Below, in pieces: positions 12,665-44,357 of a DNA stretch of 64,000 nt. The translations under genes and the position numbers were made by a program. The DNA is taken from the NCBI RefSeq assembly GCF_001586255.1, contig NZ_CP014544.1, forward strand, positions 899,501 to 963,500. The letters run 5' to 3'. Each line of letters opens with the position of its first letter. Position 1 is the first letter of the stretch. Under the pieces are notes generated by a model. It saw nothing but the letters and a program-made list of their open reading frames with translations. It made no database searches and was not told where the DNA came from. The stretch comes from Zhongshania aliphaticivorans (GTDB lineage: Bacteria; Pseudomonadota; Gammaproteobacteria; Pseudomonadales; Spongiibacteraceae).

Positions 12665-13732
12665 GTGTCATTATTTTCATTTTTAAAGCCATCTTCCAAG
12701 CGGGTTACCGTTATGCCCGCCGGGGTGAGTTTTGAGGTTAAGCCCGGACAATCTATTCTGGAGGCGGGTTTGGCCGCCGGTTATGCAATGCCTCACAGCT
12801 GCACTGTAGGCACCTGTGGCACGTGTAAATGTAAGTTGGCTGAAGGCAAGGTTAGAGAATTAACGAATTTTGCCTATGTCTTAGAGGCAGAGGAGTTACA
12901 AAGTAATGTGATTCTGACCTGTCAGGCGGCATTAAAATCAGATGCAGTTGTTGAGATTCCCAATTTCGAATTGAAGCACCTAACGCCGCCAGAAGATTTC
13001 GAGGGCGAGATCATTAAGTGTGAAGACCTGACCCACGATACCCGTAAGGTAACGATTCGCCTCGATCGCCCCGTTAAGTTTGATGCGGGGCAGTACCTGC
13101 AGGTTCACCACGAAGAGATCTTTGGTGCGCGCTCGTATTCCTTTGCCATGGCGCCAGAAGAAGAGGGTTGCCAAGAGGTCGAGCTCTTTATTCGTAACGT
13201 GCCCGGCGGTGAGTTTACCGGCATGTTATTTGCCGACAAGCTAGCCGGTGTCAAAGTGGCGATTCATGGCCCCGCTGGCAACTTTTGGCTGCGCGATGGT
13301 CGCGGCCCGATTATTTGTGTTGGCGGTGGTAGTGGTCTTGCGCCTATTGTGAGCCTGTTAGAGCAGGCGGCCAAGCAGCCTCATGGCCGCCCCTGCGTGA
13401 TGTTCTTTGGTGCGCGCAGTCAAGCTGATTTGTATTGCTTGGATCGCATTCAAAAAATTGGCGAAGCTTGGGATGGCGCCTTCCAGTTTGTGCCAGTGTT
13501 ATCTGACGAGCCTGAAGACAGTGATTGGCAGGGCTTGCGCGGCTTTGTTAATACCGCGATTGAACCCGTTGCCGGGCAGTATTTGTCTGCAGATACCCAG
13601 GTCTATTTGTGTGGCCCGCCGCCGATGATCGACGCGGTGACGGCAACAGTCTTAGAGCTCGATATTGTTGAGAAAAATATTCACGCGGATAAGTTTTTAG
13701 ATGCCAGTCACGGTATTTCTCGCCAAGACTGA
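12665..13732 (+). CDS. XylA-like NADH:ferredoxin-type monooxygenase reductase
   Basis: The GTG at 12665 has AGGAG five bases upstream and gives 355 residues; a longer TTG start lacks a site. Residues 1-95 are a plant-type 2Fe-2S ferredoxin with ligands Cys46, Cys51, Cys54 and Cys86. Then comes an FNR-type flavin domain with RSYSFA near residue 155 and an NAD domain with CVGGGSGLAP near 220 and CGPPPMI near 315. The same domain order and size occur in XylA of the TOL plasmid and CymAb. It would pass NADH electrons to a diiron membrane hydroxylase, and the XylM-like protein at 26581 is the obvious partner. Followed by ALDH and ADH genes. Confidence 0.9.
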   Translation: MSLFSFLKPSSKRVTVMPAGVSFEVKPGQSILEAGLAAGYAMPHSCTVGTCGTCKCKLAEGKVRELTNFAYVLEAEELQSNVILTCQAALKSDAVVEIPNFELKHLTPPEDFEGEIIKCEDLTHDTRKVTIRLDRPVKFDAGQYLQVHHEEIFGARSYSFAMAPEEEGCQEVELFIRNVPGGEFTGMLFADKLAGVKVAIHGPAGNFWLRDGRGPIICVGGGSGLAPIVSLLEQAAKQPHGRPCVMFFGARSQADLYCLDRIQKIGEAWDGAFQFVPVLSDEPEDSDWQGLRGFVNTAIEPVAGQYLSADTQVYLCGPPPMIDAVTATVLELDIVEKNIHADKFLDASHGISRQD

Positions 13733-13745
13733 TGTGTGTTTACTC

Positions 13746-13769
13746 GCGACGCTTTTAGGTGAGCGTCGC
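13746..13769 (+). other. Stem-loop between reductase and aldehyde dehydrogenase genes
   Basis: A 7-bp inverted repeat GCGACGC / GCGTCGC encloses a 10-base loop. No T-tract follows, so an mRNA stability or processing element is as likely as a terminator. Confidence 0.4.
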
Positions 13770-13803
13770 CGGTTCAAATGTTAATAATAAACGGAGACGC
13801 TTT

Positions 13804-15276
13804 ATGAATTCCCTTAGTGATATCAGCGTGCCCTCGGGCAAAATGTTAATCGGTAGCGACTGGTGTGACGCCTATAGTGGCGAAACCCTGAGTGTTGAAA
13901 ATCCCGCTAATGGTGAAATTTTTACGTCTATCGCTGCCGGTGGCGCAGCAGAAATTGACGCGGCGGTAAAGGCGGCGCGCAAAACATTTGAATCGACGGC
14001 GTGGTCGCGGATGCGTCCTATCGATCGCAGCCGACTATTGGAGCAAGTTGCACTTAAAATTGAAGCTCACGCTGAAGAGCTGGCCCTGCTAGAGAGTTTT
14101 GATAACGGCAAGCCCAAACATTTGGCGATGATGGTCGACATTCCCTCGTCGGTTGAAGTATTTCGTTATATGGCGGGCTGGTGCACAAAAATTTACGGCA
14201 AAACCCTGCCAATTTCTGGTGATGGTCGCCAGTACCACGCCTATACTCTGCGTCAGCCTGTCGGTGTAGTGGGTGCGATTGTGCCCTGGAATTACCCTCT
14301 GCCAATGGCCTCCTGGAAAATTGCATCAGCGCTCGCTGCGGGTTGTACAGTGGTGCTTAAGCCCTCGGAAGTGACATCATTAACTACCTTGCGTCTTGCT
14401 GAGCTTATGCTCGAAGCGGGCGTTCCACCCGGTGCCTTGAACATTGTGACGGGGGTGGGTGAAGTCGCTGGCGAAGCCTTAATTACTCATCCAGACGTTG
14501 ATAAAATTGCCTTTACCGGCTCTACACCGGTAGGTAAGCATATATTGCGTAGCTCGGCTAATGACCTGCGCCGGGTCAGCTTAGAGCTGGGCGGTAAGTC
14601 GCCTACGATTATCATGCCAGATGCCGATCTCGACAAAGCCATACCCGATGCGGCCATGGCGATCTTCTTTAACTCTGGGCAAACTTGCTTTGCCGGATCG
14701 CGTTTGCTCTGCCACGAATCAATCTACGATGTGGTGGTGGCTGGTATTAATGAAGTTGCCAAAAACCTGCCGATTGGCGCCGGCCAAGATCCGACAACCA
14801 TGATTGGCCCCGTGGTGAATAAAAAGCAACGTGAACGCATAGAAAATTATATAAAAATTGGTCAGGAAGAGGGCGCTGAACGCATTTCGCCAGAGGGTGA
14901 CGTGCCAGGACAAGGTTACTTTGTTAAGCCCACTATTTTGTCTGGTGCGAGTGCGGACTCGCGAGTGTTTAATGAGGAAATATTTGGGCCGGTGCTTACG
15001 GCAACCAAATTCAGCACCGAAGAAGAGGCTGTGAAATTAGCAAATCAAAGTCAATATGGCTTGGGCGCTAACCTGTATTGTAAAAACGTTAAAACCGCCC
15101 ACAAAATGGCGGCAGCAATCCATGCTGGAACAGTGTGGATTAACACCTATTTTGTGGTGGATGCGGCAATGCCTTTTGGTGGATTTAAAGAGTCAGGTAT
15201 CGGTCGCGAAGTCGGTGAAGACGGCGTGTTGATGTTTACCGAGTCTAAATCCGTTTGTGCTTTATTGGACGATTGA
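13804..15276 (+). CDS. Aldehyde dehydrogenase, XylC-like
   Basis: 490 residues from the ATG at 13804, which has GGAG seven bases upstream; the frame runs on to a GTG at 13759 without support. Catalytic Cys295 lies in NSGQTCFAGSR and the general-base Glu261 in LELGGKSP. PWNYPLPMASWK contributes to the cofactor site and GSTPVG to the NAD-binding turn. It oxidises an aldehyde to a carboxylate with NAD(P)+. Its size matches benzaldehyde and p-cumic aldehyde dehydrogenases, and it sits between a XylA-like reductase and a zinc alcohol dehydrogenase, so it most likely makes a ring carboxylate (inference). General betaine-aldehyde-type activity is the alternative. Confidence 0.92.
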   Translation: MNSLSDISVPSGKMLIGSDWCDAYSGETLSVENPANGEIFTSIAAGGAAEIDAAVKAARKTFESTAWSRMRPIDRSRLLEQVALKIEAHAEELALLESFDNGKPKHLAMMVDIPSSVEVFRYMAGWCTKIYGKTLPISGDGRQYHAYTLRQPVGVVGAIVPWNYPLPMASWKIASALAAGCTVVLKPSEVTSLTTLRLAELMLEAGVPPGALNIVTGVGEVAGEALITHPDVDKIAFTGSTPVGKHILRSSANDLRRVSLELGGKSPTIIMPDADLDKAIPDAAMAIFFNSGQTCFAGSRLLCHESIYDVVVAGINEVAKNLPIGAGQDPTTMIGPVVNKKQRERIENYIKIGQEEGAERISPEGDVPGQGYFVKPTILSGASADSRVFNEEIFGPVLTATKFSTEEEAVKLANQSQYGLGANLYCKNVKTAHKMAAAIHAGTVWINTYFVVDAAMPFGGFKESGIGREVGEDGVLMFTESKSVCALLDD

Positions 15277-15317
15277 TTTTAGTGGGCCTTGTTTAACGTC
15301 GAATTAGGAAGATAAAA

Positions 15318-16421
15318 ATGCAAATAACAGCAGCAGTAAGCCGGTCGGCCGGAGCAGACTTTACGATAGAGAAGTTGGAGCTTGAAGATCCCCGCGCAGA
15401 TGAAGTGCTTGTTCGCATTGTCGGGGTTGGCGTGTGTCACACCGATATCGCGGCGCGAGATCAGGCGATTCCTGCGGAAATGCCCATTGTACTCGGGCAC
15501 GAAGGTGCGGGAATTGTTGAAAAAGTAGGTGCGGGCGTGACGTCGGTAAAACCGGGCGATCACGTGGTGTTGTCATACACCTTTTGTGAAAAGTGCGCGC
15601 CCTGCGACCACGATCACCACAACTATTGTCAGCAGTTTGCGCCGCTTAATTTTGTCGGTATTCGTGCAGATGGCTCTAAAGCGCTTTCAGATAGCGCGGG
15701 TTCAGTAAGCAGTCATTTCTTTGGTCAGTCGTCTTTCGCGAGCTACGCACTGTGCTATGAAAACAATGTGATTAAGGTGCGTGATGATGCCCCTTTGGAG
15801 CTGCTTGGCCCCTTAGGCTGCGGTATTCAGACCGGCGCAGGTACATTCATGCGTTCAATGGCCTGTGAGGCGGGTTCTGCGGTTGCGGTCACCGGTGGCG
15901 GAGCAGTGGGTCTTGCTGCCGTATTGGGCGCGGTGGTGCAGGGTTGCGAAACAATTATTGTTGTCGAGCCCCACGAGAATCGCCGCAAGTTGGCGCTGGA
16001 GTTGGGCGCGACGCACGTTATTGACCCAATGGCAGGTAATATGACCGAAGCTATACGGGCTATTGTGCCAAACGGCCTTAACTATGCGCTCGATACCACA
16101 GGCAAAAATGTGGTGTTTGCTGGACTTGTGGCAGCCATGGCTGCGGCAGGGACAATAGGAATTGTGGGTGTTCCGAGTACTGAAGACGATGCAATGCTTA
16201 AGCTGGATGTGCTTAACCTCCTGCTTTGTGGCATAAAAGTTAAGGGAATTTGTGAGGGGGATGCCGACCCTGCTGAGTTTATTCCCGTTATGGTTAACTT
16301 GCATATGGAAGGCAAATTCCCATTTGATAAAATTTGCGACTTCTATTCATTTAATGAAATTAATCAAGCAGTTGCCGATCAGCACAGCGGAAAATGTGTA
16401 AAGGCAATTTTGAAGTTGTAA
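15318..16421 (+). CDS. Zinc-dependent alcohol dehydrogenase, XylB-like
   Basis: 367 residues, medium-chain dehydrogenase family. Cys40 and the GHEGAG histidine are catalytic zinc ligands, and CEKCAPCDHDHHNYC supplies the four structural zinc cysteines. The Rossmann motif GGGAVGLA lies near residue 195, followed by a likely NAD-selective acidic residue in VVEPHENR. It resembles aryl-alcohol/benzyl-alcohol dehydrogenases such as XylB in length and motif layout. It lies 41 bases after the aldehyde dehydrogenase, giving a consecutive alcohol-to-aldehyde-to-acid pair. Substrate specificity for benzylic, perillyl or aliphatic alcohols cannot be decided by eye. Confidence 0.9.
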   Translation: MQITAAVSRSAGADFTIEKLELEDPRADEVLVRIVGVGVCHTDIAARDQAIPAEMPIVLGHEGAGIVEKVGAGVTSVKPGDHVVLSYTFCEKCAPCDHDHHNYCQQFAPLNFVGIRADGSKALSDSAGSVSSHFFGQSSFASYALCYENNVIKVRDDAPLELLGPLGCGIQTGAGTFMRSMACEAGSAVAVTGGGAVGLAAVLGAVVQGCETIIVVEPHENRRKLALELGATHVIDPMAGNMTEAIRAIVPNGLNYALDTTGKNVVFAGLVAAMAAAGTIGIVGVPSTEDDAMLKLDVLNLLLCGIKVKGICEGDADPAEFIPVMVNLHMEGKFPFDKICDFYSFNEINQAVADQHSGKCVKAILKL

Positions 16422-16755
16422 ATTGCCGTCAGCGCTCTGCCTTAATGTTATCGTCCACGGGATGCAAATATTAGGGTAGCGCGGTTTTGCTGTGGAATAT
16501 TTTAGTTATAAGCACGCATCCAAATGTCGGGGGTGTGCGTAATACCAATTGCAGAAATATTATCTAACAATAACTAACGACAGTTAATTCATGCAAAGTT
16601 CACAGATTTTTAGTTAGTAAGTAAAAATGTTTGACACATTAGTTCGCTTATGAATAAATAGTATACATAATGTTAGCAAGAATATCGTCGACATAGAATC
16701 GACGAATTTTGAAGCAATTTAGAAAGACAATAATTGTTATGCAAGGGTGAATGAT
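16422..16755. promoter_or_regulatory. Promoter region of TonB receptor with inverted repeat
   Basis: 334 AT-rich bases without a gene. A candidate promoter has TTGACA at 16631-16636 and TAAATA at 16655-16660 (18-base spacer). A 6-bp inverted repeat CGTCGA-N7-TCGACG at 16686-16704 lies just downstream, in the expected 5' leader, and could be an operator. Confidence 0.5.
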
Positions 16756-19152
16756 ATGAAGAAAAGTGTTTTAGCTGTCGCGGTCGCGACACTGCCGCTA
16801 TTGGCTACAGCGACGTACGCTCAAGACGGGAGTGGAACGAAAGCTAAGCGTAGCAACCGCTTGCTCGAAGAGGTAGTGGTTACGGCGCAGAAGCGGGAGG
16901 AGGACTCCCAAGATGTTCCTATTGCGATTCAGGCGTTTTCTGGTGATAAGCTCGATGCGTTCAATATTGAAGACACCGCCGACCTGCAGCGTATCACACC
17001 GGGATTAACCTTCACTTATACCTATGGCTACACACTGATTTACCTGCGCGGTGTTGGTAGTGATGCGTTCCTGCCCAATGCGGACCCCAGTGTGGCGACC
17101 TATATCGATGGCATAAACATTCCGGCTAGCCAGGGTAAGCAAGATACCTTAGGACCAGTAAAGCGGGTTGAAGTGCTTAAAGGTCCCCAGGGTACCTTGT
17201 TCGGCCGTAATGCCACGGCGGGCGCAATCAGCATTGTAACTGAAGATCCCCCAGTCGATGAGATTGTGGGTAATGTGAAGTACGCAACGGGCAATTACGG
17301 TAGCGAGGAGTACCAAGCGTATTTGGGATTGCCTATTTTTGACGGTCTCGGCGTCACCTTGGCAGCCTTCAAAGACGGTCACGAAAATTATGGCATGAAC
17401 TACAATAACGGCGTTGAACAACCGATTCGTGAAGATTTCTCCGAAGGCGGCCGTGTCAAAATCAAATGGGATGCCGATGAGTTCTCGGCAACCTTAATTG
17501 GTTCTTATGTGAATCAATATAATGGTAACTCGCTTACTCAGGAAAACACGCGCCCATCATTGATATTGGGTGCGGGCGCGGATGTCGATGAGCCAGATCG
17601 CGAGACCCACACCAACTTTGAGGGTGGTAACGGCACTATTAACACCATGTTTGGTGCGATACTTGAGTGGCGCCCTGGTCCTGTTGATCTCAAATTCACC
17701 TATGCAGACCAGCTAGCTGACGTAGACTTTGGGCAGTACGACTACGATTCTACCGATGAAGATCGCTCCGGATTTTTTGTTTACGATCAGTATAACGACC
17801 AGCAAACTTATGAATTTCAGGTGCTGTCGAATTCAGAGACTCCAGGCTCAGATAGCTTTGAATGGGTTGCGGGCTATTATCGTTTAGAGGCTGAGGGTGG
17901 CTTTGGCCGCTTATTCTTTTTTGTTAATAATGGCTTCGCAACGGGATTTTTACCAAAGGCTTTGGGTGGCTTGTTAGCTGATCAGCCAAAAGTAACGCTT
18001 GAGTCAGGCGGAATACTTAATACTGAGTCTGACGCTGTATACTTCCAGGGTACTTATAGCATTAGTGAAGATTGGAAGCTGACCTTGGGTGCACGCTATC
18101 AAGAGGAAACACGGGAAATTAGTAAAACTAATTTGTACTTGGTCGACACTTTGTCTCCTGGTATGGATCAGTCCTATTATGAGGGCGATGATTACTCGCG
18201 GAATACGCTTATTTCAGAATTTGGTGGTGAGCCACTAGAAGAAGACACCTTTTCACCAAAGATATCTCTGCAGTGGTTTCCTGATGAAACAACGCAGATT
18301 TATACTTCGATACAGCGCGGCTACAAAAGCCCAACCTACAACATTGTTAACTTCTTTGGCGACCCTGACGCAGTTGAAGGTGAAGAGGCAACCGCGATTG
18401 AATTGGGCTTCAAGTCTGAATGGCTAGATGGCACATTGCAGCTCAACGGCGCAATCTATGCATCTGAAACCAAGAACCTGCTTACCGGTATTGTGTCATT
18501 CACCTCTGGTGCAATTGTACGTTATGCCAACGCTGGCGCTGCAGAGGCGAAGGGTGTTGAGATGGACATGCAATGGCAGCCGATGCCAAACTGGAACCCA
18601 GGCTTAGCAATTACCGGTGGTGCTTCTTACGTAAACTCTGAGTTCACCGATTATGAAAATGGTGAGGGCTTCGACGATACCACGGGCTTGTACTTTGGAC
18701 CCGGTGGTTTAGAGGATATTCCGCTCGGCTTGTTGGGAATTGAACTGCCGATTTCCACTGGTGGTGTAATCAATGGCCCGCGCGATTTCACTGGCAACCA
18801 AGTGCCTCGTGCACCGAAGCTGACTTCGTCTGTATCTGTTAACCAATATATCGATATTGGCGATTTTGGTGGGCTTGAGTTGGCAGTAGACTACTCTTAT
18901 AAAAGTGAGTATTTCACAACGCCGCAGAACTCACCGTTCTATGTACAGGATCAGTATGAGATATGGTCTCTACGTACCAGCTACTTCTACGACCCTTGGG
19001 GCTTACAGTTAACGGCATTTGTTGATAATGCTAAAGACAAGGATTACTACGCTTCTATTTTGCAGCAAGACTTTGGTCGCTCGGTTACTTTGGCACCGCC
19101 ACGGCTTTATGGTCTGAAAATTAAGTGGGATTTTGATACTTTCTTAAACTAA
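16756..19152 (+). CDS. TonB-dependent outer-membrane receptor
   Basis: 798 residues from the ATG at 16756, with AAGGG eight bases upstream; a GTG at 16747 overlaps that site and is less likely. Signal peptide residues 1-23 end at ATYAQD. The TonB-box-like stretch EEVVVTAQKREE begins near residue 37, and the plug domain carries VEVLKGPQGTLFGRNATAGAISI, the classic receptor signature. The rest is a 22-strand barrel ending in the aromatic-rich IKWDFDTF. It imports a scarce or bulky ligand across the outer membrane using TonB energy. Lying after the alcohol/aldehyde dehydrogenase genes and before an SDR, it probably takes up the pathway substrate. Confidence 0.95.
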   Translation: MKKSVLAVAVATLPLLATATYAQDGSGTKAKRSNRLLEEVVVTAQKREEDSQDVPIAIQAFSGDKLDAFNIEDTADLQRITPGLTFTYTYGYTLIYLRGVGSDAFLPNADPSVATYIDGINIPASQGKQDTLGPVKRVEVLKGPQGTLFGRNATAGAISIVTEDPPVDEIVGNVKYATGNYGSEEYQAYLGLPIFDGLGVTLAAFKDGHENYGMNYNNGVEQPIREDFSEGGRVKIKWDADEFSATLIGSYVNQYNGNSLTQENTRPSLILGAGADVDEPDRETHTNFEGGNGTINTMFGAILEWRPGPVDLKFTYADQLADVDFGQYDYDSTDEDRSGFFVYDQYNDQQTYEFQVLSNSETPGSDSFEWVAGYYRLEAEGGFGRLFFFVNNGFATGFLPKALGGLLADQPKVTLESGGILNTESDAVYFQGTYSISEDWKLTLGARYQEETREISKTNLYLVDTLSPGMDQSYYEGDDYSRNTLISEFGGEPLEEDTFSPKISLQWFPDETTQIYTSIQRGYKSPTYNIVNFFGDPDAVEGEEATAIELGFKSEWLDGTLQLNGAIYASETKNLLTGIVSFTSGAIVRYANAGAAEAKGVEMDMQWQPMPNWNPGLAITGGASYVNSEFTDYENGEGFDDTTGLYFGPGGLEDIPLGLLGIELPISTGGVINGPRDFTGNQVPRAPKLTSSVSVNQYIDIGDFGGLELAVDYSYKSEYFTTPQNSPFYVQDQYEIWSLRTSYFYDPWGLQLTAFVDNAKDKDYYASILQQDFGRSVTLAPPRLYGLKIKWDFDTFLN

Positions 19153-19175
19153 GTCGATTTCTTCCAGCAAGTTTT

Positions 19176-19203
19176 AACCGCCCAATTGGGCGGTTTTTTT
19201 TTA
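19176..19203 (+). terminator. Intrinsic terminator after TonB receptor
   Basis: GC-rich hairpin AACCGCCC-AATT-GGGCGGTT directly followed by a run of T. It ends the receptor transcript just 17 bases before the next gene start, so the SDR may be read through weakly or have its own promoter. Confidence 0.88.
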
Positions 19204-19219
19204 ATAGCGTGGTGTGTTT

Positions 19220-20113
19220 ATGAAATATCAATCTGTATACCGAGATGGTCTGTTCAAGAATCAGGTCATTATTATCACTGGCGGTGGTAGCGGCATTGGT
19301 CGCTGTACCGCGCATGAGCTTGCTTCGCTCGGTGCGACCGTGGCAATTATGGGCCGTACCCGAGAGAAGCTGGAAATTGTTCAACAGGAAATTATTGCTG
19401 ACGGCGGCTTATGCGCGATATACCCCGGCGATATTCGCAATGAGGAACAGGTCATTGCTGTGATCGAAGCGGTACTAGCAGACCACAAACGCATAGACGG
19501 ACTGGTAAATAATGCTGGCGGTCAGTATCGACAGCCGATAAGTGAGATTAGCAGCAAGGGCTTTGAAGCCGTGGTGCGCCTTAATTTGTTCGGTGGATTT
19601 ATGATGATGCGCGAAGTCTACAATCGTTGGATGGCAAAAAACGGTGGAAGCATTGTCAATATTATTGCTGATATCTGGAATGGCTGGCCAAACTATGCCC
19701 ACTCGGGTGCATCGCGAGGCGGTATGCTCACGCTGTCAGAGAGTGCGGCCTCGGAATGGGCGCCCGCTGGAGTGAGGGTAAATTGTGTTGCTCCAGGTGG
19801 CATTGCGAGTAGCGGCTTCGATACTTATGAGCCGGCGGCACAAGCGGAGATTCTAAAATTTCCTCAAGCGATTCCCTTGCAGCGCTACGGTAATGTTGCG
19901 GAAATTTCCGGCGCAATAACGTATTTGCTTTCGCCGGTGGCGGCGTATATCACGGGTAGCTGCATTCGTGTTGATGGCGGCGCGCCAAACGCGCGCCTGT
20001 GCTGGAACCCGCCGACCGAACATAGCAACTCGCAAGCATACTCGGGCTTCCATCGCGACGAGGCGCCAAAGCTGTTAACCGAAGGAATCAAGGCCGAGTC
20101 GAGTCGAGGCTGA
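19220..20113 (+). CDS. SDR-family oxidoreductase, PECR-like
   Basis: 297 residues from the ATG at 19220 (a GTG two codons earlier is possible). The cofactor motif is TGGGSGIG near residue 19 and NNAGG is present. The normal YxxxK is absent: the segment HSGASRGGMLTLSESAASEWA has Ser and Arg in those positions. This HSGA.R.G pattern matches peroxisomal trans-2-enoyl-CoA reductase relatives rather than alcohol dehydrogenases. A role reducing or oxidising an acyl-CoA intermediate is inferred. It has an unusually long C-terminal extension of ~40 residues after the VDGG motif. It is convergent with the nitronate monooxygenase gene. Confidence 0.82.
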   Translation: MKYQSVYRDGLFKNQVIIITGGGSGIGRCTAHELASLGATVAIMGRTREKLEIVQQEIIADGGLCAIYPGDIRNEEQVIAVIEAVLADHKRIDGLVNNAGGQYRQPISEISSKGFEAVVRLNLFGGFMMMREVYNRWMAKNGGSIVNIIADIWNGWPNYAHSGASRGGMLTLSESAASEWAPAGVRVNCVAPGGIASSGFDTYEPAAQAEILKFPQAIPLQRYGNVAEISGAITYLLSPVAAYITGSCIRVDGGAPNARLCWNPPTEHSNSQAYSGFHRDEAPKLLTEGIKAESSRG

Positions 20114-20232: not shown

Positions 20233-21207
20233 TCAGCCAATGCGATCCAGAAAGGTGCGGCGAGCGGCCTCATATTCACGGCTGAGGCGGGCAACCAATT
20301 CAGCCGTTGGTACTATGTTTTTAACCGCATTAATACCTTGTCCGCAGCCCCAGATATCCTTCCAAGTATTAAAACTCTGGCTGGTTTCGCTTACATCAAT
20401 GGCTTTGTCGGCATCGCGTTTTAGTGATTTTGGATCTAGCCCTGCGCGCTCTACGGAGCCGACTAAAAAGTTGGCGGGTACGCCGCTGAAGGCGTCGGTG
20501 GTGATGATGTCTTTGGCGCTACCGTCAACGATCATGGCCTTGTAGTCGGCGACGGCATTGGCTTCTTTGGTAGCTATAAACGGCGAGCCAATATAAGCGA
20601 AGTCTGCGCCGGTGGCCAAGGCTGCCAGAATATTTTGGCCGGTGGCAATGCAGCCAGAGAGGGCGAGTGGTCCGTCCCACCACTCTCGTATTTCGGATAC
20701 CAAGGCAAAGGGTGAAATATTGCCGGTGTGGCCACCTGCACCTGCGGCAACGGCAATAAGACCATCAACCCCGCCTTCAACCGATTTTTTGGCTTGGCGA
20801 TTAGAAATAATATCGTTGAGCACAATACCACCGTAGCTGTGCACCACCTCGCAGATTTGTGGCGCGACATAGAGGCTCACAATCACAATAGGAATTTTAT
20901 ATTTTGCGATAATTTCCAGATCGCCCATTAAGCGGTCGTTGCTGGGGTGGGATATTTGGTTAATAGCAAAAGGCGCGGCTGGCTGATCTGGATTTTGGCG
21001 GTCGTATTCGGCTAACTCAGTTTGAATTTTGATAATCCAGTCTTCGAGTTGGCTTTGCGGGCGGGCATTTAGGGCGGGAATTGAGCCAATAATACCGGCC
21101 TTGCACTGGGCTATAACTAACTCCGGTGTCGAGGCGATAAACATTGGTGCGGCCATAACGGGTAGGCGCACATTTTTAGTGAGAATTTCGGGAAGAGCCA
21201 TGGTCAT
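20233..21207 (-). CDS. Nitronate monooxygenase family FMN protein
   Basis: 324 residues, a TIM-barrel flavoprotein of the 2-nitropropane dioxygenase/FabK group. FMN-binding segments are visible: GAGGHTGNISPF near residue 175 and LSGCIATGQNILAALATGADFAYIGSPF near 200-225. Classical activity oxidises alkyl nitronates, but many such genes in fatty-acid clusters act as enoyl-reductase-like or toxin-relief enzymes. It is 7 bases downstream of the acyl-CoA dehydrogenase on the minus strand, so the two are one operon, controlled most likely by the divergent LysR regulator. I cannot tell whether its electron acceptor is oxygen or an enoyl-CoA. Confidence 0.85.
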   Translation of the reverse strand: MTMALPEILTKNVRLPVMAAPMFIASTPELVIAQCKAGIIGSIPALNARPQSQLEDWIIKIQTELAEYDRQNPDQPAAPFAINQISHPSNDRLMGDLEIIAKYKIPIVIVSLYVAPQICEVVHSYGGIVLNDIISNRQAKKSVEGGVDGLIAVAAGAGGHTGNISPFALVSEIREWWDGPLALSGCIATGQNILAALATGADFAYIGSPFIATKEANAVADYKAMIVDGSAKDIITTDAFSGVPANFLVGSVERAGLDPKSLKRDADKAIDVSETSQSFNTWKDIWGCGQGINAVKNIVPTAELVARLSREYEAARRTFLDRIG

Positions 21208-21214
21208 ATCCTCG

Positions 21215-22351
21215 TTAAATAGAGCGGCTGATTAAGTCTTTCATAATTTCTGAGGTGCCGCCGTATAGGCGCATTACCCGTGCGTCGCGCCATAAGCGGG
21301 CAATTTCGTACTCCTCAATATAGCCGTAGCCACCAAAGAGCTGTAGGCAGTCGTCTACCACTTTACAGCGCAGCTCGCTGTGCCAGAGTTTGGCGGCGGC
21401 GGCTTCGTGGGTGGCGAGTTTGCCGTCAACCAGCGCTTGTATACAGGCATCTAAGTGGGCCCAACCTACTTGTAAATTGGTTTTGAGGTTGGCCAAAACA
21501 AAGCGGGTGTTTTGAAAGTCGAATACCGCTTTGCCAAAGGCTTGCCGCTCTTTTACGTAGTCTACGGCAATATCGTAGGCGTGCTGTGCTGCGGCCTGGC
21601 AGGAGATGGCGATGGACAGGCGCTCCTGGGGTAGCTCTTTCATCATATAGATAAAGCCTTCGCCTTGTTTACCCAGCATATTCTCCTGGGGAATAAAGAC
21701 GTCTTCAAAGAACAGCTCGGCGGTGTCAGATGAGCGGTTGCCGACCTTGTCGAGCTTGCGTCCTTTAATGAAGCCTGCTTGATCACAGCCGCAAACAAAC
21801 AGTGAAATTGCCCGCGCACCGCTATCGTCACCTACCCGAGCGGCAATAACGGCCACGTCGGCATTTAGACCATTGGTGATAAAGGTTTTGGACCCGTTGA
21901 GTAAGAAGCCGCCCTCTACCGGGGTAGCCTTGGTGCGGATGTTTTTTAAATCGCTACCGGTGCTGGGTTCGCTCATGCAAATGGCGCCAATGGCCTCGCC
22001 GCTTGCCATTTTGGGTAGCCAGTGTTGTTTGACCGTCTCACTGCCGTAGTTATTAATATAGTGGGCGACAATATCATTGTGTACCCCAAATGCCGGGCCG
22101 GTGGTGCCGGCGAGGGCCGTTTCCTCTAGCAGAATGGCATTGAATTTAAAGTCTAGTCCGCCGCCACCGTAGGTCTCTGGGATATCTGGCAGTAACATGC
22201 CGTTATTACCGCAGGCGCGCCAGAATTCGCGGCTGACAATACCTTTGGTTTCCCACTCCTCTACGTAGGGGGTAAGCTCCTGAGCGTACATTTTTTTGAC
22301 GCTCTCGCGAAACATTGCGTGGTCTTCGGTATAGATGGCGCGCTCTATCAT
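21215..22351 (-). CDS. Acyl-CoA dehydrogenase, LCAD-like
   Basis: 378 residues. FAD-contacting segments CMSEPSTGSDL and FITNG are present. The C-terminal GGYGYIEEYEIARLWRDARV and YGGTSEIM segments are close to mammalian long-chain acyl-CoA dehydrogenase. The C-terminal position of the MCAD catalytic Glu is Gly here (YGGT), so the base is expected at the IVD/LCAD position, in LPQERLSIA near residue 245. It introduces a 2,3 double bond and hands electrons to ETF. First gene of the two-gene operon that diverges from the LysR regulator. It could act on branched or cyclic acyl-CoAs, as such LCAD-type enzymes often do (inference). Confidence 0.92.
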   Translation of the reverse strand: MIERAIYTEDHAMFRESVKKMYAQELTPYVEEWETKGIVSREFWRACGNNGMLLPDIPETYGGGGLDFKFNAILLEETALAGTTGPAFGVHNDIVAHYINNYGSETVKQHWLPKMASGEAIGAICMSEPSTGSDLKNIRTKATPVEGGFLLNGSKTFITNGLNADVAVIAARVGDDSGARAISLFVCGCDQAGFIKGRKLDKVGNRSSDTAELFFEDVFIPQENMLGKQGEGFIYMMKELPQERLSIAISCQAAAQHAYDIAVDYVKERQAFGKAVFDFQNTRFVLANLKTNLQVGWAHLDACIQALVDGKLATHEAAAAKLWHSELRCKVVDDCLQLFGGYGYIEEYEIARLWRDARVMRLYGGTSEIMKDLISRSI

Positions 22352-22397
22352 GAGGTTGATCCTGTGGTCTTAATTTGACGCAAAGATTGACAAAGTT

Positions 22398-22422
22398 TAA
22401 ATATTCCGTCTAATGATATTTA
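22398..22422. promoter_or_regulatory. Putative LysR binding site (T-N11-A type)
   Basis: A perfect 7-bp dyad TAAATAT-N11-ATATTTA sits in the 99-base divergent region between the acyl-CoA dehydrogenase and the LysR gene. This is the classic LysR-type box architecture and location. Confidence 0.7.
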
Positions 22423-22450
22423 TTCTATATTATTCGAAAAGGGAATACCT

Positions 22451-23338
22451 TTGAATCCAAATAAACTGCGTCATATTGTGGCGGTAGATCGCTGCGGATC
22501 ATTAACCGCAGCGGCAAAGCAGGTTCACATTACGCAATCGGCCCTGACTAAAAACATTGCCGACATTGAAGCTGAGGTCGGTTTTGCCTTATTTGAACGC
22601 TACGCCCGTGGCATGCACGCCACGTCTCAGGGGCGAAGCTTTATTGATCGCGCAGCGCGCATTGTGGCCGACCTAGATCAGTTGACAACCGATGCCAAGT
22701 TGGGACGCCAGCTAAGTAGTTCGCGGATACGTGTGGGAGTTTGTCCGCCGTCCTTGGTGTCGCTGTTAAACACCGCGCTAACGCAAATGCTAATGGCTCA
22801 CCCCGATGTCAGAATTGAACAAACCGCAGGTTGGATTGAGCAGAGCATTCACCATTTAGTAAACCGCGATATTGATTTATTAGTTGGTCCGGCGCCGGCA
22901 ATTAGCTTGCACAAATCTCAATTTACCATCCATCCGCTGCCGCCACTGGAAATCTGTTTTTTTGTACGTAAGGCCCACCCTTTGGGTGACCGAAAAAAGA
23001 TAAATATAGGCGAGTTAAATCAGTTTCCGATGGCGCTGGCAGACCGCAGTGTGGCAACCGCGGAGCTGATTAATCAACTGTTTGGTGCGCCGGTTATTCC
23101 GCCAGAAAAACAGTTGCATATCATTGGTCATTTTTCAGCTGCCTGCAAAATTGTCGCCAACAGCGATACCATTGGTACCGTGTCAGCCTCATATAAAGAC
23201 AATGAGGCCTTTCTTGATGAGTTTTCGTTTTTAAATATTGTCGAAAAAGTGGAGCCCGTGCCCTTGGCGGCAGCTTATAGCACTAAATTTTTGCCAAGTG
23301 AGCCAATGAAAACCCTAGTAAGAATGCTTGAGTCCTAG
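22451..23338 (+). CDS. LysR-family transcriptional regulator
   Basis: 295 residues beginning with TTG at 22451, placed right at the normal LysR N-terminus and preceded by AAGGGA. The winged HTH covers residues 1-60 (HIVAVDRCGSLTAAAKQVHITQSALTKNIADIE). The effector-binding periplasmic-binding-like domain covers about 90-290. It diverges from the acyl-CoA dehydrogenase/nitronate monooxygenase operon, with a perfect dyad between them, so it very probably activates that operon in response to a pathway intermediate and represses itself. The inducer is unknown. Confidence 0.92.
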   Translation: MNPNKLRHIVAVDRCGSLTAAAKQVHITQSALTKNIADIEAEVGFALFERYARGMHATSQGRSFIDRAARIVADLDQLTTDAKLGRQLSSSRIRVGVCPPSLVSLLNTALTQMLMAHPDVRIEQTAGWIEQSIHHLVNRDIDLLVGPAPAISLHKSQFTIHPLPPLEICFFVRKAHPLGDRKKINIGELNQFPMALADRSVATAELINQLFGAPVIPPEKQLHIIGHFSAACKIVANSDTIGTVSASYKDNEAFLDEFSFLNIVEKVEPVPLAAAYSTKFLPSEPMKTLVRMLES

Positions 23339-23430
23339 GCATTGGTATAAGCTTATGGGCTGAGCTCTGCTTGTAATATGTGTAAAACATACCGCTCGGA
23401 ACTTTTTGGATTAAATGATCGCTAGCGAAC

Positions 23431-23458
23431 TTTACTTTTGCAAACTAATAGCTATACT
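23431..23458 (+). promoter_or_regulatory. Candidate sigma70 promoter
   Basis: TTTACT (23431-23436) and TATACT (23453-23458) with a 16-base spacer, about 75 bases upstream of the FadB/J-like gene start. By eye only. Confidence 0.4.
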
Positions 23459-23532
23459 AGGTATTCAAGTGGTTCTGGTAGTTCACATTTTTCTTGAGGT
23501 GAAAGCAGGGCGTAACTATCTAGGAGTTATCG

Positions 23533-25269
23533 GTGCTTAAGAGTCAATCTATGAAGAACATAACTGTAACTGCAGATTCGAGTGGCGTTATGGTGGCGAC
23601 TCTAGATATGCCGGGGCGGCCCTTCAATGTATTTTCTGAAGCGATGATGGCTGATCTTGCCGCCTTAATTGAGTTGATCGAAAAGGCTGTTGCAGCGGGT
23701 CAGCCGCCTGCCGGATTGGTCATCACGTCCGGTAAATCGAGTTTTGTTGCGGGCGCCGATTTAGCCATGATCCAAGATTTTGGCGCCATGCGGTTTTCTG
23801 CCACGTGGCAAGAAATGCGTGATCGCTATAGTTATCTAGGCAAATTATTCCGCCGTTTAGAAAAGTTGCCGGTGCCCACTGTTGCTGCGGTAAATGGTCT
23901 CGCCCTCGGTGGTGGCTTAGAGTTGGCGATGGCCTGCCATGGCCGGGTGTGTATTGATGCGCCCTATGTCCAGCTCGGACTCCCCGAAGTCTTGCTTGGC
24001 CTTTTGCCTGGCGCGGGTGGCACCCAGCGTTTACCTCGCTATGTTGGTCTTGAACTCAGCACTAAAATGTTGCTGGATGGCAAGCCGCTGTCTGCGGCGC
24101 AAGCTAAAGCAAGCGGTTTAGTAGACCGCCTTGCCTCAGCAGAAAATCTTGTGGCTACCGCCAGCGAAATGGTACTGAGCATGAACGCTGGTGCGCGCTG
24201 GGATTCGCCAGAATATCGTATGGCCACCGATGTCGCTGTGGCAACGACAGATACTGGTTTTCGGCACTGGGCTTGCCAAGTGGCCGGCATCAGCGACCGC
24301 GATGCCAAGCTCTATCCAGCAGTCGATGCCATTATCAATTGCCTCGTTGGCGGCTACACAAAACCAATTGATACAGCCTGTGATGTTGAGTGGGATATCT
24401 TTGTCGATTTAATGAGTAATCCGGTGTCGTCAAATATGGTGACGAGCTGCTTTTTATCAAAGACCGCAGCGACTAAGCAGTCGTTAGTGGGTTTACCCGC
24501 TGTTTCAGCTCCGACGAGTTTTGTTCTCTTGGGAGACCTCGATTTAGGTAAAAATCCGTTTAGAAAAATGGCCCAGCAAGCGGAAGCAGATTTTTATATA
24601 GCCGCCGCGAGCAGTGATGATGGTCGCGCAGATTTATTGGTTCACCAGCTTGGCTCAGCCCCAAGCGGTGCGGGCGCAAAGCCGGTGCTGCGACTGGCGA
24701 ATAACTTTGCCCGCAGTGAAGTTGTTGAATTGGCGGCGGCTGAATCGGCGGAGTCTAATGCGCGTGCCATGGCGGTATTGCAACGCAGTGCAAAGGCTAT
24801 TGTATTGAGCCGTAGTGCCCAGAGCGTGAATGAAGTGCTACTTACCGCTATGCGCGCGGCATATGCAAACGCGGGTGTTTCCGCACAGAATTTTTATACC
24901 CAGTGTGAGGCGGTCGGTTTGGAGTCTTTGGCACGAATAGCGATCGACGACCTCGCAGTGCCAGCTCAAAATACCCAAGTGCCAAATAAAGAACTTGGCC
25001 TACCCTTGTTGCTTGGCTTGTCAGTTGCTGTTTACGACTGGCTAACAAGCCAGTTGAGCGATGATGACAGCGCTAATGACGCTCTACTGGCGGGCGTGGA
25101 TTTACTGGCTATTTACGGCGTTGGCTTTCCTAAATGGACGGGTGGTCCGCTGTCTTGCCTGAGTATGTTCCAGCGCGGCGAATTGGCGTATAGCGGCTCA
25201 CAAGAATTAATAGCTCAACTGCAATGGCAGTTTAAAAATGAGTTGGGCTACAAGCTAAGCGCAGCCTAA
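23533..25269 (+). CDS. FadB/FadJ-like enoyl-CoA hydratase with degenerate 3-hydroxyacyl-CoA dehydrogenase half
   Basis: 578 residues from the GTG at 23533 (AGGAG six bases upstream; ATG at 23551 is the alternative). Residues 1-200 are a complete crotonase domain with both catalytic glutamates, Glu130 in GGGLELA and Glu152 in LPEVLLG, plus GAGGTQRLPR. After the usual helical linker, the region where FadB/J have an NAD-binding Rossmann fold is shortened by about 140 residues. No GxGxMG motif is seen (only LGDLDLG) and the active-site H-F-F-N-P segment is missing. The C-terminal helical domain with FPKWTGGPL remains. It should hydrate enoyl-CoAs but not oxidise 3-hydroxyacyl-CoAs. The frame is intact, so this is a remodelled protein, not an obvious pseudogene. 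Confidence 0.85.
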   Translation: MLKSQSMKNITVTADSSGVMVATLDMPGRPFNVFSEAMMADLAALIELIEKAVAAGQPPAGLVITSGKSSFVAGADLAMIQDFGAMRFSATWQEMRDRYSYLGKLFRRLEKLPVPTVAAVNGLALGGGLELAMACHGRVCIDAPYVQLGLPEVLLGLLPGAGGTQRLPRYVGLELSTKMLLDGKPLSAAQAKASGLVDRLASAENLVATASEMVLSMNAGARWDSPEYRMATDVAVATTDTGFRHWACQVAGISDRDAKLYPAVDAIINCLVGGYTKPIDTACDVEWDIFVDLMSNPVSSNMVTSCFLSKTAATKQSLVGLPAVSAPTSFVLLGDLDLGKNPFRKMAQQAEADFYIAAASSDDGRADLLVHQLGSAPSGAGAKPVLRLANNFARSEVVELAAAESAESNARAMAVLQRSAKAIVLSRSAQSVNEVLLTAMRAAYANAGVSAQNFYTQCEAVGLESLARIAIDDLAVPAQNTQVPNKELGLPLLLGLSVAVYDWLTSQLSDDDSANDALLAGVDLLAIYGVGFPKWTGGPLSCLSMFQRGELAYSGSQELIAQLQWQFKNELGYKLSAA

Positions 25270-25345
25270 TTTAAGTAAAATTTTTTAGCTATATAGTACT
25301 CAAGCGAAAATTACGATTGTGAAGTAAATAAATTGGTGGTTCATA

Positions 25346-26491
25346 ATGATAGAAAGAACGCTCTTTAACGAAGAACATAATATGTTTCGGGAATCGGTTC
25401 GGCGGTTTATTGAGAAGGAAATCGCCCCCTATCACGAACAATGGGAAAAAGACGGTGTTGTGCCCCGTGAACTTTGGCTAAAAGCGGGTGAAGCGGGCAT
25501 GCTCTGCTGCACCATCGCGGAAGAGTATGGCGGCTTAGGTGCCGATTACCTCTACGACGTAGTGGTATTTGAAGAATTGTTCCGCTCCGGTTACTCCGGC
25601 CCAGGATTTTTGATTCACACCGATTTGGTTGCTACGTATATCAATTCATTTGGTACCGAAGAGCAGAAAAAACGTATTCTGCCGAAGATGGTATCCGGTG
25701 AATGGATCGGTTCTCTCGGTATGACAGAACCCCATGCGGGCAGCGATCTAAAAAATATTCGTACCAAAGCGGTTCGCGATGGTGATGACTTCATCATCAA
25801 TGGTCAGAAAGTCTTTATTTCTAACGGCCAGAACTGCGATATTTTAGTGTGCGCAACCAAGACCGATTCTGCTGCTGGCGCCAACGGCGTTACTTTGTTC
25901 ATTGTTGAAGGCGACATGAAAGGCTTTGTGCGCGGTAAAAACCTCGACAAACTGGGCATGAAAGCGCAGGACACCTCAGAACTGTTTTTTGAAGACGTTC
26001 GCGTACCCGCCACCAATATGCTTGGTGAAGAGGGTAAGGGTTTCAAAATCATGATGCAGAAACTCGCCCAAGAGCGTCTTGCCCAAACGATTCGCAGTGC
26101 GACGGTCACCGAGACTGTTATCGAGTGGACCAGAGACTACGTGTCTCAACGTGAAGCCTTTGGCCAGACTATTGCCGACTTCCAAAACACCCAGTTTAAA
26201 CTGGCCGAGCTGTACGCCGAAGCAGTGGTTGGTCGGGTGTTTACCGATAAGTGCATTGAATTATTTATTGCTGGCAAGCTGGATTCCGTAACGGCCGCAA
26301 TCGCCAAAATGCAGTTGAGTAACTTGCACTGCAAAGCAGTAGATGAGTGTTTGCAGCTGTTTGGCGGCTGGGGCTATATGTGGGAATACCCCATTTGTCG
26401 CGCTTATGCCGATGCTCGTATTGTCAAAATTGCCGGTGGCTCCATCGAGATAATGAAAACGATTATTTCAAAGGAAATATTTAAAAAGTGA
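25346..26491 (+). CDS. Acyl-CoA dehydrogenase, LCAD-like
   Basis: 381 residues, closely resembling mammalian ACADL across its length. Segments include MTEPHAGSDL, FISNGQ, LAQERLAQT (probable catalytic Glu), GGWGYMWEYPI and IAGGSIEIMK. As in the paralogue at 21215, the MCAD-type C-terminal catalytic Glu is absent. It oxidises acyl-CoA to trans-2-enoyl-CoA, passing electrons to ETF. Located 76 bases after the FadB/J-like gene in the same direction, so oxidation and hydration are coupled. The two paralogues probably act on different intermediates, for example a saturated ring acyl-CoA and a later linear one (inference). Confidence 0.93.
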   Translation: MIERTLFNEEHNMFRESVRRFIEKEIAPYHEQWEKDGVVPRELWLKAGEAGMLCCTIAEEYGGLGADYLYDVVVFEELFRSGYSGPGFLIHTDLVATYINSFGTEEQKKRILPKMVSGEWIGSLGMTEPHAGSDLKNIRTKAVRDGDDFIINGQKVFISNGQNCDILVCATKTDSAAGANGVTLFIVEGDMKGFVRGKNLDKLGMKAQDTSELFFEDVRVPATNMLGEEGKGFKIMMQKLAQERLAQTIRSATVTETVIEWTRDYVSQREAFGQTIADFQNTQFKLAELYAEAVVGRVFTDKCIELFIAGKLDSVTAAIAKMQLSNLHCKAVDECLQLFGGWGYMWEYPICRAYADARIVKIAGGSIEIMKTIISKEIFKK

Positions 26492-26508
26492 TCTAAACTT
26501 CGACTAGA

Positions 26509-26536
26509 GAGCCTCGATATTGCATCGAGGCTTTTT
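26509..26536 (+). terminator. Intrinsic terminator
   Basis: Hairpin GCCTCGAT-ATTGC-ATCGAGGC followed by TTTTTT, ending the acyl-CoA dehydrogenase transcript. Confidence 0.9.
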
Positions 26537-26580
26537 TAGTGTGGTATTAAAATAAAGCACTAAAATAAGAGGTTATTAGC

Positions 26581-27687
26581 ATGTTTGATTATGCGCGTTA
26601 CTACTTTTCTCCATTGATTCAGTTGCTTACCGCTGTGTCGATCATCGTTGGCGGACCGTGGGTGTGGTTCGGAATAATAACGTTGCCGGCACTGGCCTTA
26701 GCCGACTATTTACTACCTATTGACCTTAAAGAGCGTCATATTAATAACCGAACCTTGGCAAATATTCCGATTTGGATCAGCTCGGTGGCGGGACCATGCT
26801 TATTATTTGTACTGGCATGGAAAATTGGTGGTGGCACACTTAGCACTGCCGAGCTCCTTGGTGCTACTTTGTCGGTAACTTGGCTGTCGGTTATTGTGGT
26901 GGTGCCAGCCGCCCATGAGTTGTATCACCAGCGCGGTGTAATGCGTCAGTTTGTCGGGACCTATTGTCAGGTTGTATACCTTGATTGCACGCGGAATATC
27001 GCGCATATGTCGGGTCACCACTTAGATGTTGGTACACCGCTAGACAGTGATACCGCCGCACGGGGTGAGTCGCTGTACACATTTGCATTGCCCGCGGTAT
27101 ACCACAGTACAATTTGCGCGTTTCGCTTAGAAAGCGACGCGCTTGAAAAACGCGGTATGGGTCGATATTCGCTTAAACACCGCATGTGGCCTGCCATTAT
27201 TGCCCAGCTTGCTTTCCAGGGAATTATATTCGCGATTGGTGGCCCGGTGGCCTTGGTGTGCGGTATTGCCTCGGTTTTGGTTGCGCGCCTTTGGGTAGAG
27301 ACCTTTAACTTCTTCCAGCATTTTGGTCAGGTTCGGGTGCCTGGTAAACCGATTGGTCGCCGCCATGTTTGGAATCACCTTGGGCCAATGACTCGTGTAA
27401 TCGCCTTTGAGATCACCAATCACGCGGATCACCACCTCAATGCCTATACGCCGTATTACAAGCTTAAGCCTGATACGACAGCAATCAAAATGCCTAATGT
27501 CTTCATCTGCTTCTTGAGCGCCTTAATTCCGCCGGTATGGAATAATGTCATTGCCAAACCTGCACTAAAGCGTTGGGACTTGGAGTTGGCAAGCAGCGAA
27601 GAACGCGTCTTAGCTAAAGCGCAAAACGAGCGCGCTGGCTGGCCAGATTGGTTTGGTGATGAGCAAGAGGTCAAGGCTGCTGCTTAA
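26581..27687 (+). CDS. XylM/CymAa-like membrane-bound diiron monooxygenase
   Basis: 368 residues, the same length as xylene monooxygenase XylM (369). Several hydrophobic helices precede and separate four histidine clusters typical of AlkB-type diiron hydroxylases: His112-E-L-Y-His116, His142-x3-His146-His147, FQ-His247-FG, and NHADHH with His281, His284 and His285. Segments such as GTPLDSDTAARGESLY, FEITNHADHH and FLSALIPPVWNNVIAKPAL match XylM better than alkane-1-monooxygenase AlkB. It would hydroxylate a methyl group on a ring or an alkyl chain using electrons from the XylA-like reductase at 12665. It is flanked by terminators and so transcribed alone. The family is firm; the substrate (toluene-like, p-cymene, limonene or methylcyclohexane) is open. 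Confidence 0.88.
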   Translation: MFDYARYYFSPLIQLLTAVSIIVGGPWVWFGIITLPALALADYLLPIDLKERHINNRTLANIPIWISSVAGPCLLFVLAWKIGGGTLSTAELLGATLSVTWLSVIVVVPAAHELYHQRGVMRQFVGTYCQVVYLDCTRNIAHMSGHHLDVGTPLDSDTAARGESLYTFALPAVYHSTICAFRLESDALEKRGMGRYSLKHRMWPAIIAQLAFQGIIFAIGGPVALVCGIASVLVARLWVETFNFFQHFGQVRVPGKPIGRRHVWNHLGPMTRVIAFEITNHADHHLNAYTPYYKLKPDTTAIKMPNVFICFLSALIPPVWNNVIAKPALKRWDLELASSEERVLAKAQNERAGWPDWFGDEQEVKAAA

Positions 27688-44355: not shown

Positions 44356-44357
44356 TC

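Follow-up and report, generated by a model that had tools for sequence, protein, structure and literature searches.

A CymAa-clade methyl hydroxylase and a predicted CoA branch with BadH/BadI-like genes in a probable hydrocarbon-catabolic island of Zhongshania aliphaticivorans

Genes of the locus and phylogeny of the hydroxylase

The window analyzed here is a stretch of 64,000 nucleotides (C1:899501-963500) from the 4.20 Mb genome of Zhongshania aliphaticivorans; all plain coordinates are window positions. The original prediction placed at 12665-27687 four genes of TOL upper-pathway families, with the hydroxylase some 10 kb from the other three. All four proved to be intact open reading frames (ORFs) of the lengths first stated, 355, 490, 367, and 368 aa, and Pfam families agreed with the assignment:

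12665..13732, + strand: 2Fe-2S/FAD/NAD reductase of the CymAb/XylA type, 355 aa, GTG start (Fer2, FAD_binding_6, NAD_binding_1)
13804..15276, + strand: aldehyde dehydrogenase (ALDH), 490 aa, ATG start (PF00171, Aldedh); an alternative, longer GTG start lies at 13759
15318..16421, + strand: zinc (MDR) alcohol dehydrogenase (ADH) of the XylB type, 367 aa (PF08240, ADH_N; PF00107, ADH_zinc_N)
26581..27687, + strand: membrane di-iron methyl hydroxylase of the CymAa/XylM type, 368 aa (PF00487; AlkB fold; clade with a cym-type anchor)

The hydroxylase gene starts 10.16 kb past the end of the ADH gene, as had been predicted. Pfam and NCBIfam models also confirmed the CoA ligase, two acyl-CoA dehydrogenases (ACADs), crotonases, and dienoyl-CoA-reductase-like short-chain dehydrogenases/reductases (SDRs) that had been read from the block. 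The locus extends past 12665-27687 on both sides, to 4962-7587 and 35793-37420. Its candidate CoA-branch, uptake, and regulatory genes are as follows:

7677..8909, - strand: 3-ketoacyl-CoA thiolase (TIGR01930, 387 bits, above the cut-off of 241)
8987..10558, - strand: acyl-CoA (AMP-forming) ligase (PF00501/PF13193; best NCBIfam model PRK06187, above cut-off)
10580..11371, - strand: ECH263, crotonase-fold hydratase/isomerase (PF00378; 0 of the 25 NCBIfam models shown above cut-off)
11411..12292, - strand: SDR293, 2,4-dienoyl-CoA-reductase-like (best NCBIfam model PRK07677, 220 bits, cut-off 318)
16747..19152, + strand: TonB-dependent receptor, probably for substrate uptake (PF00593/PF07715)
19214..20113, + strand: SDR299, second dienoyl-CoA-reductase-like SDR (PRK07677 second-best NCBIfam model, under cut-off)
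20233..21207, - strand: flavin oxidoreductase, nitronate monooxygenase/FabK-like (PF03060; TIGR03151 far under cut-off)
21215..22351, - strand: acyl-CoA dehydrogenase ACAD378 (acyl-CoA-dehydrogenase family models; QERL segment, YGGTSEIMK tail)
22451..23338, + strand: LysR-type regulator (LysR-family models; of those shown, none above cut-off)
23533..25269, + strand: crotonase domain protein, candidate ring hydratase (PF00378 at residues 16-221 only)
25346..26491, + strand: acyl-CoA dehydrogenase ACAD381 (acyl-CoA-dehydrogenase family models)
35793..36563, + strand: BadH-like SDR, 2-hydroxycyclohexanecarboxyl-CoA dehydrogenase type (TIGR03206 best, 318 bits, next model 206; cut-off 431)
36629..37420, + strand: BadI-like hydrolase, 2-ketocyclohexanecarboxyl-CoA hydrolase type (TIGR03210, 443 bits, cut-off 467.6)

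The second-best NCBIfam model of the BadI-like protein was of the MenB type (360 bits). In 23533-25269, the approximately 350 residues after the crotonase domain had no Pfam match. The TonB receptor is 58% and 55% identical to two receptors of the region upstream of the window. Both ACADs contain the QERL segment and a tail with Gly, which we take to occupy the position of the catalytic Glu in other acyl-CoA dehydrogenases; this is presumably the LCAD/IVD arrangement, not that of ACAD11 with its Asp.

The hydroxylase is 38% identical to the pWW0 protein annotated as xylM. The pWW0 proteins labeled in that record as 2Fe-2S protein, benzaldehyde dehydrogenase, and zinc-binding dehydrogenase, which we assume to be XylA, XylC, and XylB, are 39%, 33%, and 49% identical to the reductase, ALDH, and ADH, respectively. 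The corresponding values for the cym-type operon of genome G121 were 49% (hydroxylase), 46% (reductase), and 57% (ALDH); the ALDH is also 59% identical to that of G658. Judged by these identities, the hydroxylase, reductase, and ALDH are nearer to a cym-type operon than to xyl, and the ADH is of the XylB type.

A structural model of the hydroxylase (pLDDT 90.9) matched two AlkB structures, 8f6t and 8sbb, with TM scores of 0.82 and 0.81, and its sequence could be aligned to solved AlkB structures. The histidines of the HExxH, HxxxHH, QH, and HxxHH motifs were invariant across 30 aligned sequences and also align to AlkB. Fold and histidine motifs are thus common to the hydroxylase and the AlkB alkane hydroxylase system, but the former lies in a separate clade, and a 2Fe-2S/FAD reductase is found in place of rubredoxin.

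The phylogenetic tree comprised 66 rows, including 29 of 240 homologues (120 listed from each of two sets of 597 and 276 found). The hydroxylase was located in a 57-row XylM/CymAa-type clade (100/100), separate from nine AlkB-like rows, which are own-genome and other proteins, named alkane AlkB being absent from the tree. Within the 57 rows, it belonged to a 42-row clade (100/92) that contains the cym-type anchor G121, while the XylM rows formed a 14-row sister clade (96/87) that excludes it. Long branches make the exact places of G192, G011, the AlkB-like rows, OWN_par2, G308b, and G121 unsure, and for this reason so is the placement of G121 within its clade. Because the 42-row clade contains G121 and excludes XylM, we conclude that, by its sequence, the hydroxylase is a member of the CymAa clade rather than an XylM. 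The label "XylM-like" that it had been given does not hold, while its separation from AlkB-like proteins, for which a phylogenetic check had been suggested, does. XylM membership was rejected by the tree, and membership in alkane AlkB by the tree together with the lack of a nearby rubredoxin motif: a single pattern, searched in six frames, had no match in the window or in loci L024-L026, and had one match in L027, beside an AlkB-like gene.

The genes in G121 code, in a row, for an SDR (252 aa), an ALDH (494), a hydroxylase (376), a reductase (349), and an outer-membrane protein (463 aa), with p-cumate-type genes further along. The part of PMC5224996 used here gives, for strains LB400 and F1, lengths of 252 (CymB), 494 (CymC), 375-376 (CymAa), 349 (CymAb), and 460 aa (CymD). 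Among the matches listed, several hydroxylase relatives are named "p-cymene methyl-monooxygenase" by JGI. The closest named relative, 93% identical, is from a Zhongshania metagenome-assembled genome (MAG; locus L015).

Compared with the cym/cmt system of P. putida F1 and B. xenovorans LB400, the locus is alike in having a two-component methyl hydroxylase in the clade of the cym-type anchor, an ALDH and a reductase 57% and 46% identical to those of the anchor, and p-cumate-type meta-cleavage genes within the same island. It differs in that a 367-aa XylB-type MDR ADH replaces the 252-aa CymB, the hydroxylase stands apart from the reductase, and there is, in addition, a CoA branch that includes BadHI-like genes. 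The TOL xyl upper operon of pWW0 has the same four enzyme classes, with a 49% identical ADH; unlike there, the hydroxylase here (38% identical) is outside the XylM clade, the genes are non-contiguous, and the downstream genes are different.

The upstream cluster and conservation of the locus

The genome encodes two further hydroxylases of the same kind, 60% and 44% identical to 26581, and three AlkB-like proteins located elsewhere (at most 28% identical). The 60% paralogue (C1:876899-877984) lies 48 kb upstream of 26581. A cluster by this paralogue, at C1 880-891 kb, codes for an extradiol-type dioxygenase, an SDR, a hydrolase, an acylating acetaldehyde dehydrogenase, Rieske oxygenase subunits, and a hydratase, as well as an aldolase and an aldolase/adducin-type protein (the last two labeled by reading of the sequences). 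By sequence, this is the gene set of a p-cumate-type meta-cleavage pathway, and it lies 9-19 kb upstream of the window start; the original statement that aromatic ring cleavage is absent must be corrected. Also beside the 60% paralogue (L024 6758-13285) are a cytochrome P450, a GMC oxidoreductase, and a regulator of the LuxR family that weakly matches MalT-TPR. For Pseudomonas sp. M1, the excerpted text of PMC7794910 describes a MalT-type regulator that accompanies the myrcene hydroxylase.

No relative of the window reductase, ADH, or ALDH was found in the 37.6 kb upstream region. Two full-length reductases of this type are present in the genome, 12665 and another (44%) beside the 44% paralogue; further matches were partial, with at most 42% identity. 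In L026 (1-13571), the 44% hydroxylase is accompanied by a separate reductase, ADH, and TonB receptor, with Rieske and extradiol-type genes alongside; as judged from gene content, this is another aromatic methyl-oxidation cluster of the same genome. The reductase, ALDH, and ADH of the window may be shared rather than dedicated, because the island also holds the p-cumate-type cluster.

The gene order of 3280-27687 was the same in G023 (74-98% identity) apart from SDR299 and the TonB receptor, so the arrangement is not due to chance. SDR299 was not found in G023, and the TonB receptor next to the ADH (L068-L070) is split into two ORFs; genuine loss or faulty assembly could account for this. The succession of upstream cluster and window block is the same in both G023 and G378. 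G378 lacks 26581 and retains the reductase (86%), ALDH (90%), ADH (88%), and upstream hydroxylase (78%).

Downstream of 26581, at 27804-35468, lies a storage-lipid block (GPAT, lipase-type hydrolase, DUF3336-patatin, WS/DGAT, and HAD-acyltransferase), which is conserved in G023, G378, G232, and G308. A tblastn search located the hydroxylase at the junction of ACAD381 and the GPAT gene in two of the five genomes that bear this junction, our own and G023; in G378, G232, and G308, the hydroxylase is absent from it. There was no GPAT match in the stretches read of G123, G1160, and G252. The presence of 26581 at the junction in only two of five genomes explains, at least in part, why the hydroxylase is split from the other upper-pathway genes.

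Two reductase-ALDH-ADH sets were found in G123, one adjoining p-cumate-type genes and the other adjoining SDR293-ECH263-ligase, with a BadH/BadI-like pair within approximately 10 kb of the second set. Only the set by SDR293-ECH263-ligase was seen in G1160 and G252; the G1160 contig also has p-cumate-type genes. The simplest account is that one upper set is common to two hydroxylases in Z. aliphaticivorans and that G123 has two sets.

Similar associations were found in other loci. Relatives of SDR293, ACAD381, and the BadH- and BadI-like proteins (62-78%) are encoded beside hydroxylase relatives in L018 and L020, both Sphingomonadales loci. In L020, a Sphingopyxis plasmid locus, relatives of the hydroxylase (53%), SDR293 (63%), and ACAD381 (75%) lie within the same 31 kb, and the BadH- and BadI-like relatives have the same best models (325 and 410 bits); L018 is similar. 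SDR293 relatives in the two loci are 63-64% identical, and relatives of crotonase 23533 (34-38%) are immediately upstream of the hydroxylase in both. At L017, a hydroxylase (58%) and a ligase (47%) are accompanied by a BadI-like relative (61%). G658, of the Pseudomonas-like family f21, has a hydroxylase (58%), the reductase-ALDH-ADH set, ACAD381 (77%), a ligase, and a relative of SDR299 (69%). Overall, ACAD381 relatives in L018, L020, and G658 are 75-78% identical, and ligases adjoining hydroxylase relatives in G658, L016, and L017 are 44-47% identical to 8987. Neither ring-opening nor Rieske/extradiol genes were found in the stretches read of G658, G492, L016, and the 62-64% copies of G123, G252, G232, and G308. 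Rieske/extradiol genes accompany the clade member instead at the 44% paralogue, G121, L019, L021, and the second copy of G308, with weak matches (23-32%) in the last case.

Among 18 genomes of the genus, the same eight carry the reductase (at least 75% identity), ACAD381 (at least 90%), the BadI-like gene (at least 92%), and a hydroxylase-clade member (at least 60%; in G1160, a 277-residue fragment at a contig start), while the remaining 10 have none of the four at these limits. Weaker relatives in those 10 were reductases of 34-43% in four and ACADs of at most 57% in all. For co-occurrence of the hydroxylase with the reductase, Fisher p = 2e-5, without correction for kinship. In a phylum-wide sample of 398 genomes, only our own genome matched at E<=1e-50.

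Proposed pathway and rival explanations

We consider it reasonably probable that the module forms the CoA branch within an island for hydrocarbon catabolism, p-menthane-type cyclic monoterpenes (limonene, phellandrene, terpinene, and similar) being its likeliest substrates. An alicyclic substrate with CoA-dependent ring opening is likely, and a terpene is favored over a petroleum alkylcyclohexane. The original proposal, oxidation of a methyl group of an alicyclic or terpenoid compound followed by CoA-dependent degradation, was supported in outline in that the hydroxylase does not group with AlkB-like proteins, no rubredoxin motif was found in the window, and a BadH/BadI-like pair is present.

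The order of reactions that we infer is as follows. The substrate would enter via TonB receptor 16747, and hydroxylase 26581 would oxidize a ring methyl group with electrons passed from NADH by reductase 12665. The alcohol would be converted to the aldehyde and then the acid by ADH 15318 and ALDH 13804, and ligase 8987 would make the CoA thioester. Crotonase 23533 or 10580 would next hydrate a ring double bond, BadH-like SDR 35793 would oxidize the hydrated ring, and BadI-like 36629 would open it by hydrolysis. Beta-oxidation would then proceed through the acyl-CoA dehydrogenases, the dienoyl-CoA-reductase-like SDRs, and the thiolase. The second hydroxylase, 48 kb upstream, probably draws on the same reductase/ALDH/ADH set, in which case aromatic (p-cymene-like) and alicyclic members would leave by two exits.

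Individual steps of this scheme have been described elsewhere. Conversion of limonene to perillyl alcohol by CymA in E. coli is described in the portion of PMC9084310 drawn on here. For the mrc/geo island of Castellaniella defragrans, the passages available from PMC4109377 propose that perillate is converted to perillyl-CoA and its ring opened by MrcF/D/E, MrcD and MrcE being relatives of BadH and BadI, and state that a mutant in the dienoyl-reductase gene mrcC did not grow on limonene. By that description, the logic is like that of our locus, with a CoA thioester, BadH/BadI-type opening, a dienoyl-CoA reductase, and acyl-CoA dehydrogenases. Unlike there, where limonene is attacked by CtmAB without oxygen, an O2-dependent hydroxylase is predicted here. 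If the proposal is true, an O2-dependent cym-type methyl hydroxylase is tied to a type of ring opening described for anaerobic degraders of benzoate and monoterpenes, and there is a genetic basis for the use of monoterpenes or alkylcyclohexanes by marine Zhongshania. In open-licence PMC literature, Zhongshania and terpene were found together in one paper, listed as concerning rubber-degrading consortia, and Zhongshania and methylcyclohexane in none.

Several observations weigh against the proposal. The BadH- and BadI-like proteins score below curated cut-offs (318/431 and 443/467.6), though these are the best models for each. The identity of the substrate is itself something we infer, and the cym anchor G121 was recognized from gene lengths and context, in a comparison without experimentally characterized CymAa, MyrH, or Mrc sequences. 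In five of the eight genomes (G123, G252, G232, G308, and G378), the hydroxylase resembles the upstream paralogue (69-78%) more than it does 26581, and in the first four of these it is not beside the module, so the link there is one of co-occurrence alone; the 18 genomes are, moreover, related, and co-occurrence in them does not amount to 18 independent events. G361 has a BadI-like gene (87%) without a close reductase or ACAD381 and with no other island gene recognized alongside (it also has an operon of the XylM type and, at 51% identity, a hydroxylase fragment of 119 residues), and G252 has a second BadI-like copy of the same sort. In G658, which contains most of the module, the 40 kb read showed no BadI relative, and the shared core thus need not mean ring opening. 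In our own genome, the 7.7-kb storage-lipid block separates the BadHI-like pair from the hydroxylase. Finally, the GMC oxidoreductase of the upstream region could act on the alcohol made by the upstream hydroxylase, so a shared ADH is not forced.

An extended form of the proposal is possible, and we put it forward tentatively: one reductase/ALDH/ADH set would serve two hydroxylases, aromatic acids would go to p-cumate-type cleavage and alicyclic ones to an aerobic, CoA-dependent BadHI-like opening, and a kinase trio (4962-7587, see below) would supply an undescribed phosphorylation of a hydroxylated intermediate. Since genomes of the genus differ in whether they carry the hydroxylase at one junction, the notion of a shared reductase lends itself to a direct test.

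A serious, though rather unlikely, alternative is that the substrate is an alkylcyclohexane, with methylcyclohexane converted to cyclohexanecarboxylate and its CoA ester, ACAD378/381 producing cyclohexene-carboxyl-CoA, and the BadH/BadI-like enzymes leading to pimeloyl-CoA. The presence of the pair agrees with such a route, as does the "oil" in the isolate name of the Zhongshania MAG that is the closest named genome. Both ACADs match cyclohexanecarboxyl-CoA dehydrogenase models at 203-235 bits, but this is far under the cut-offs of 575-650; scores were higher with an acryloyl-CoA reductase model (276 and 323 bits), which likewise stayed under cut-off. Furthermore, two dienoyl-CoA-reductase-like SDRs suggest an unsaturated substrate, and the nearby p-cumate-type and AtuA-type genes favor terpenoids.

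An acyclic, beta-myrcene-like monoterpene, degraded as in Pseudomonas sp. M1 by a MyrH-type hydroxylase, MyrB/MyrA, a CoA ligase, and beta-oxidation with release of propionyl-CoA, appears improbable. As described in the excerpts of PMC7794910 and PMC13111069, the M1 island has the same enzyme logic (membrane hydroxylase, ADH, ALDH, CoA ligase, beta-oxidation), and these excerpts mention no BadHI-type genes. AtuA genes are present within the window, and no BadI relative accompanies the core module of G658 within the 40 kb that was read. The M1 substrate is acyclic, however, and such a route leaves the BadH/BadI-like genes without a role. In addition, 25 genomes of the Pseudomonas-like genus of G094 had no hydroxylase match at E<=1e-50. 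A hunt for MyrH in 398 genomes of another Pseudomonas-like genus gave matches in five, two at 58% and three at 38%. A protein search with SDR293 revealed no named monoterpene degrader, and no Castellaniella or Thauera, among the best 120 of 7999 matches.

Finally, the reductase-ALDH-ADH set might belong to the upstream p-cymene/p-cumate-type cluster alone, with 26581 a duplicate of overlapping aromatic specificity and the CoA genes serving an unrelated acid. This would fit the lack of relatives of the three genes upstream, their retention in G378 without 26581, and the restriction of 26581 at the ACAD381-lipid junction to our own genome and G023 among five. It is very improbable, however, given that the second set of G123 and the sole set seen in G1160 adjoin SDR293-ECH263-ligase and that a hydroxylase relative occurs together with relatives of the BadH-like and BadI-like proteins and of ACAD381 in two loci of Sphingomonadales.

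Other genes of the window

Three overlapping genes are conserved partners of the locus:

4962..5954, + strand: DUF7064/DUF7065 protein (relatives in L020, L021, and G658, two of them in the last)
5951..7105, + strand: APH-family small-molecule kinase (PF01636; relatives in G658, G492, L020, and L021)
7105..7587, + strand: 160-aa protein linked to the kinase (no Pfam match; relatives in G658, L020, and L021)

The trio is retained with the locus in G023, G378, G232, G308, G123, and G1160. Its relatives adjoin hydroxylase relatives in G658, L020, and L021, and in G492 the kinase does so as well. Relatives of the kinase in the PDB, by sequence, include ACAD11. A single-sequence structure model of the DUF7064 protein (pLDDT 37.6) was discarded. 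Because an APH kinase is present in the locus, elimination from a 4-phosphoacyl-CoA of the LvaA/LvaC type, as outlined in the excerpt of PMC12440821 used, was considered. It was set aside for both ACADs in view of QERL and the tail Gly, the arrangement assumed above to be of the LCAD/IVD type.

Downstream of the BadI-like gene lie the following genes:

42070..44690, + strand: crotonase (gamma-carboxygeranoyl-CoA-hydratase-like), AtuA, and AtuA ferredoxin-like protein (PF07287, 525 bits; PF23544)

For this crotonase, NF004227 was the second-best model (279 bits, cut-off 426). The three genes probably represent, by their sequences, a neighboring terpenoid function, and the AtuA-type genes add a hint of terpenoids. 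A further catabolic cluster may lie at 52288-62979, where genes for a penicillin-amidase-type protein and for two PQQ-type proteins are interspersed with ORFs resembling TonB receptors. The window ends, at 63470-64000, in an ORF that, on reading of its sequence, resembles a transposase of the ISL3 kind.

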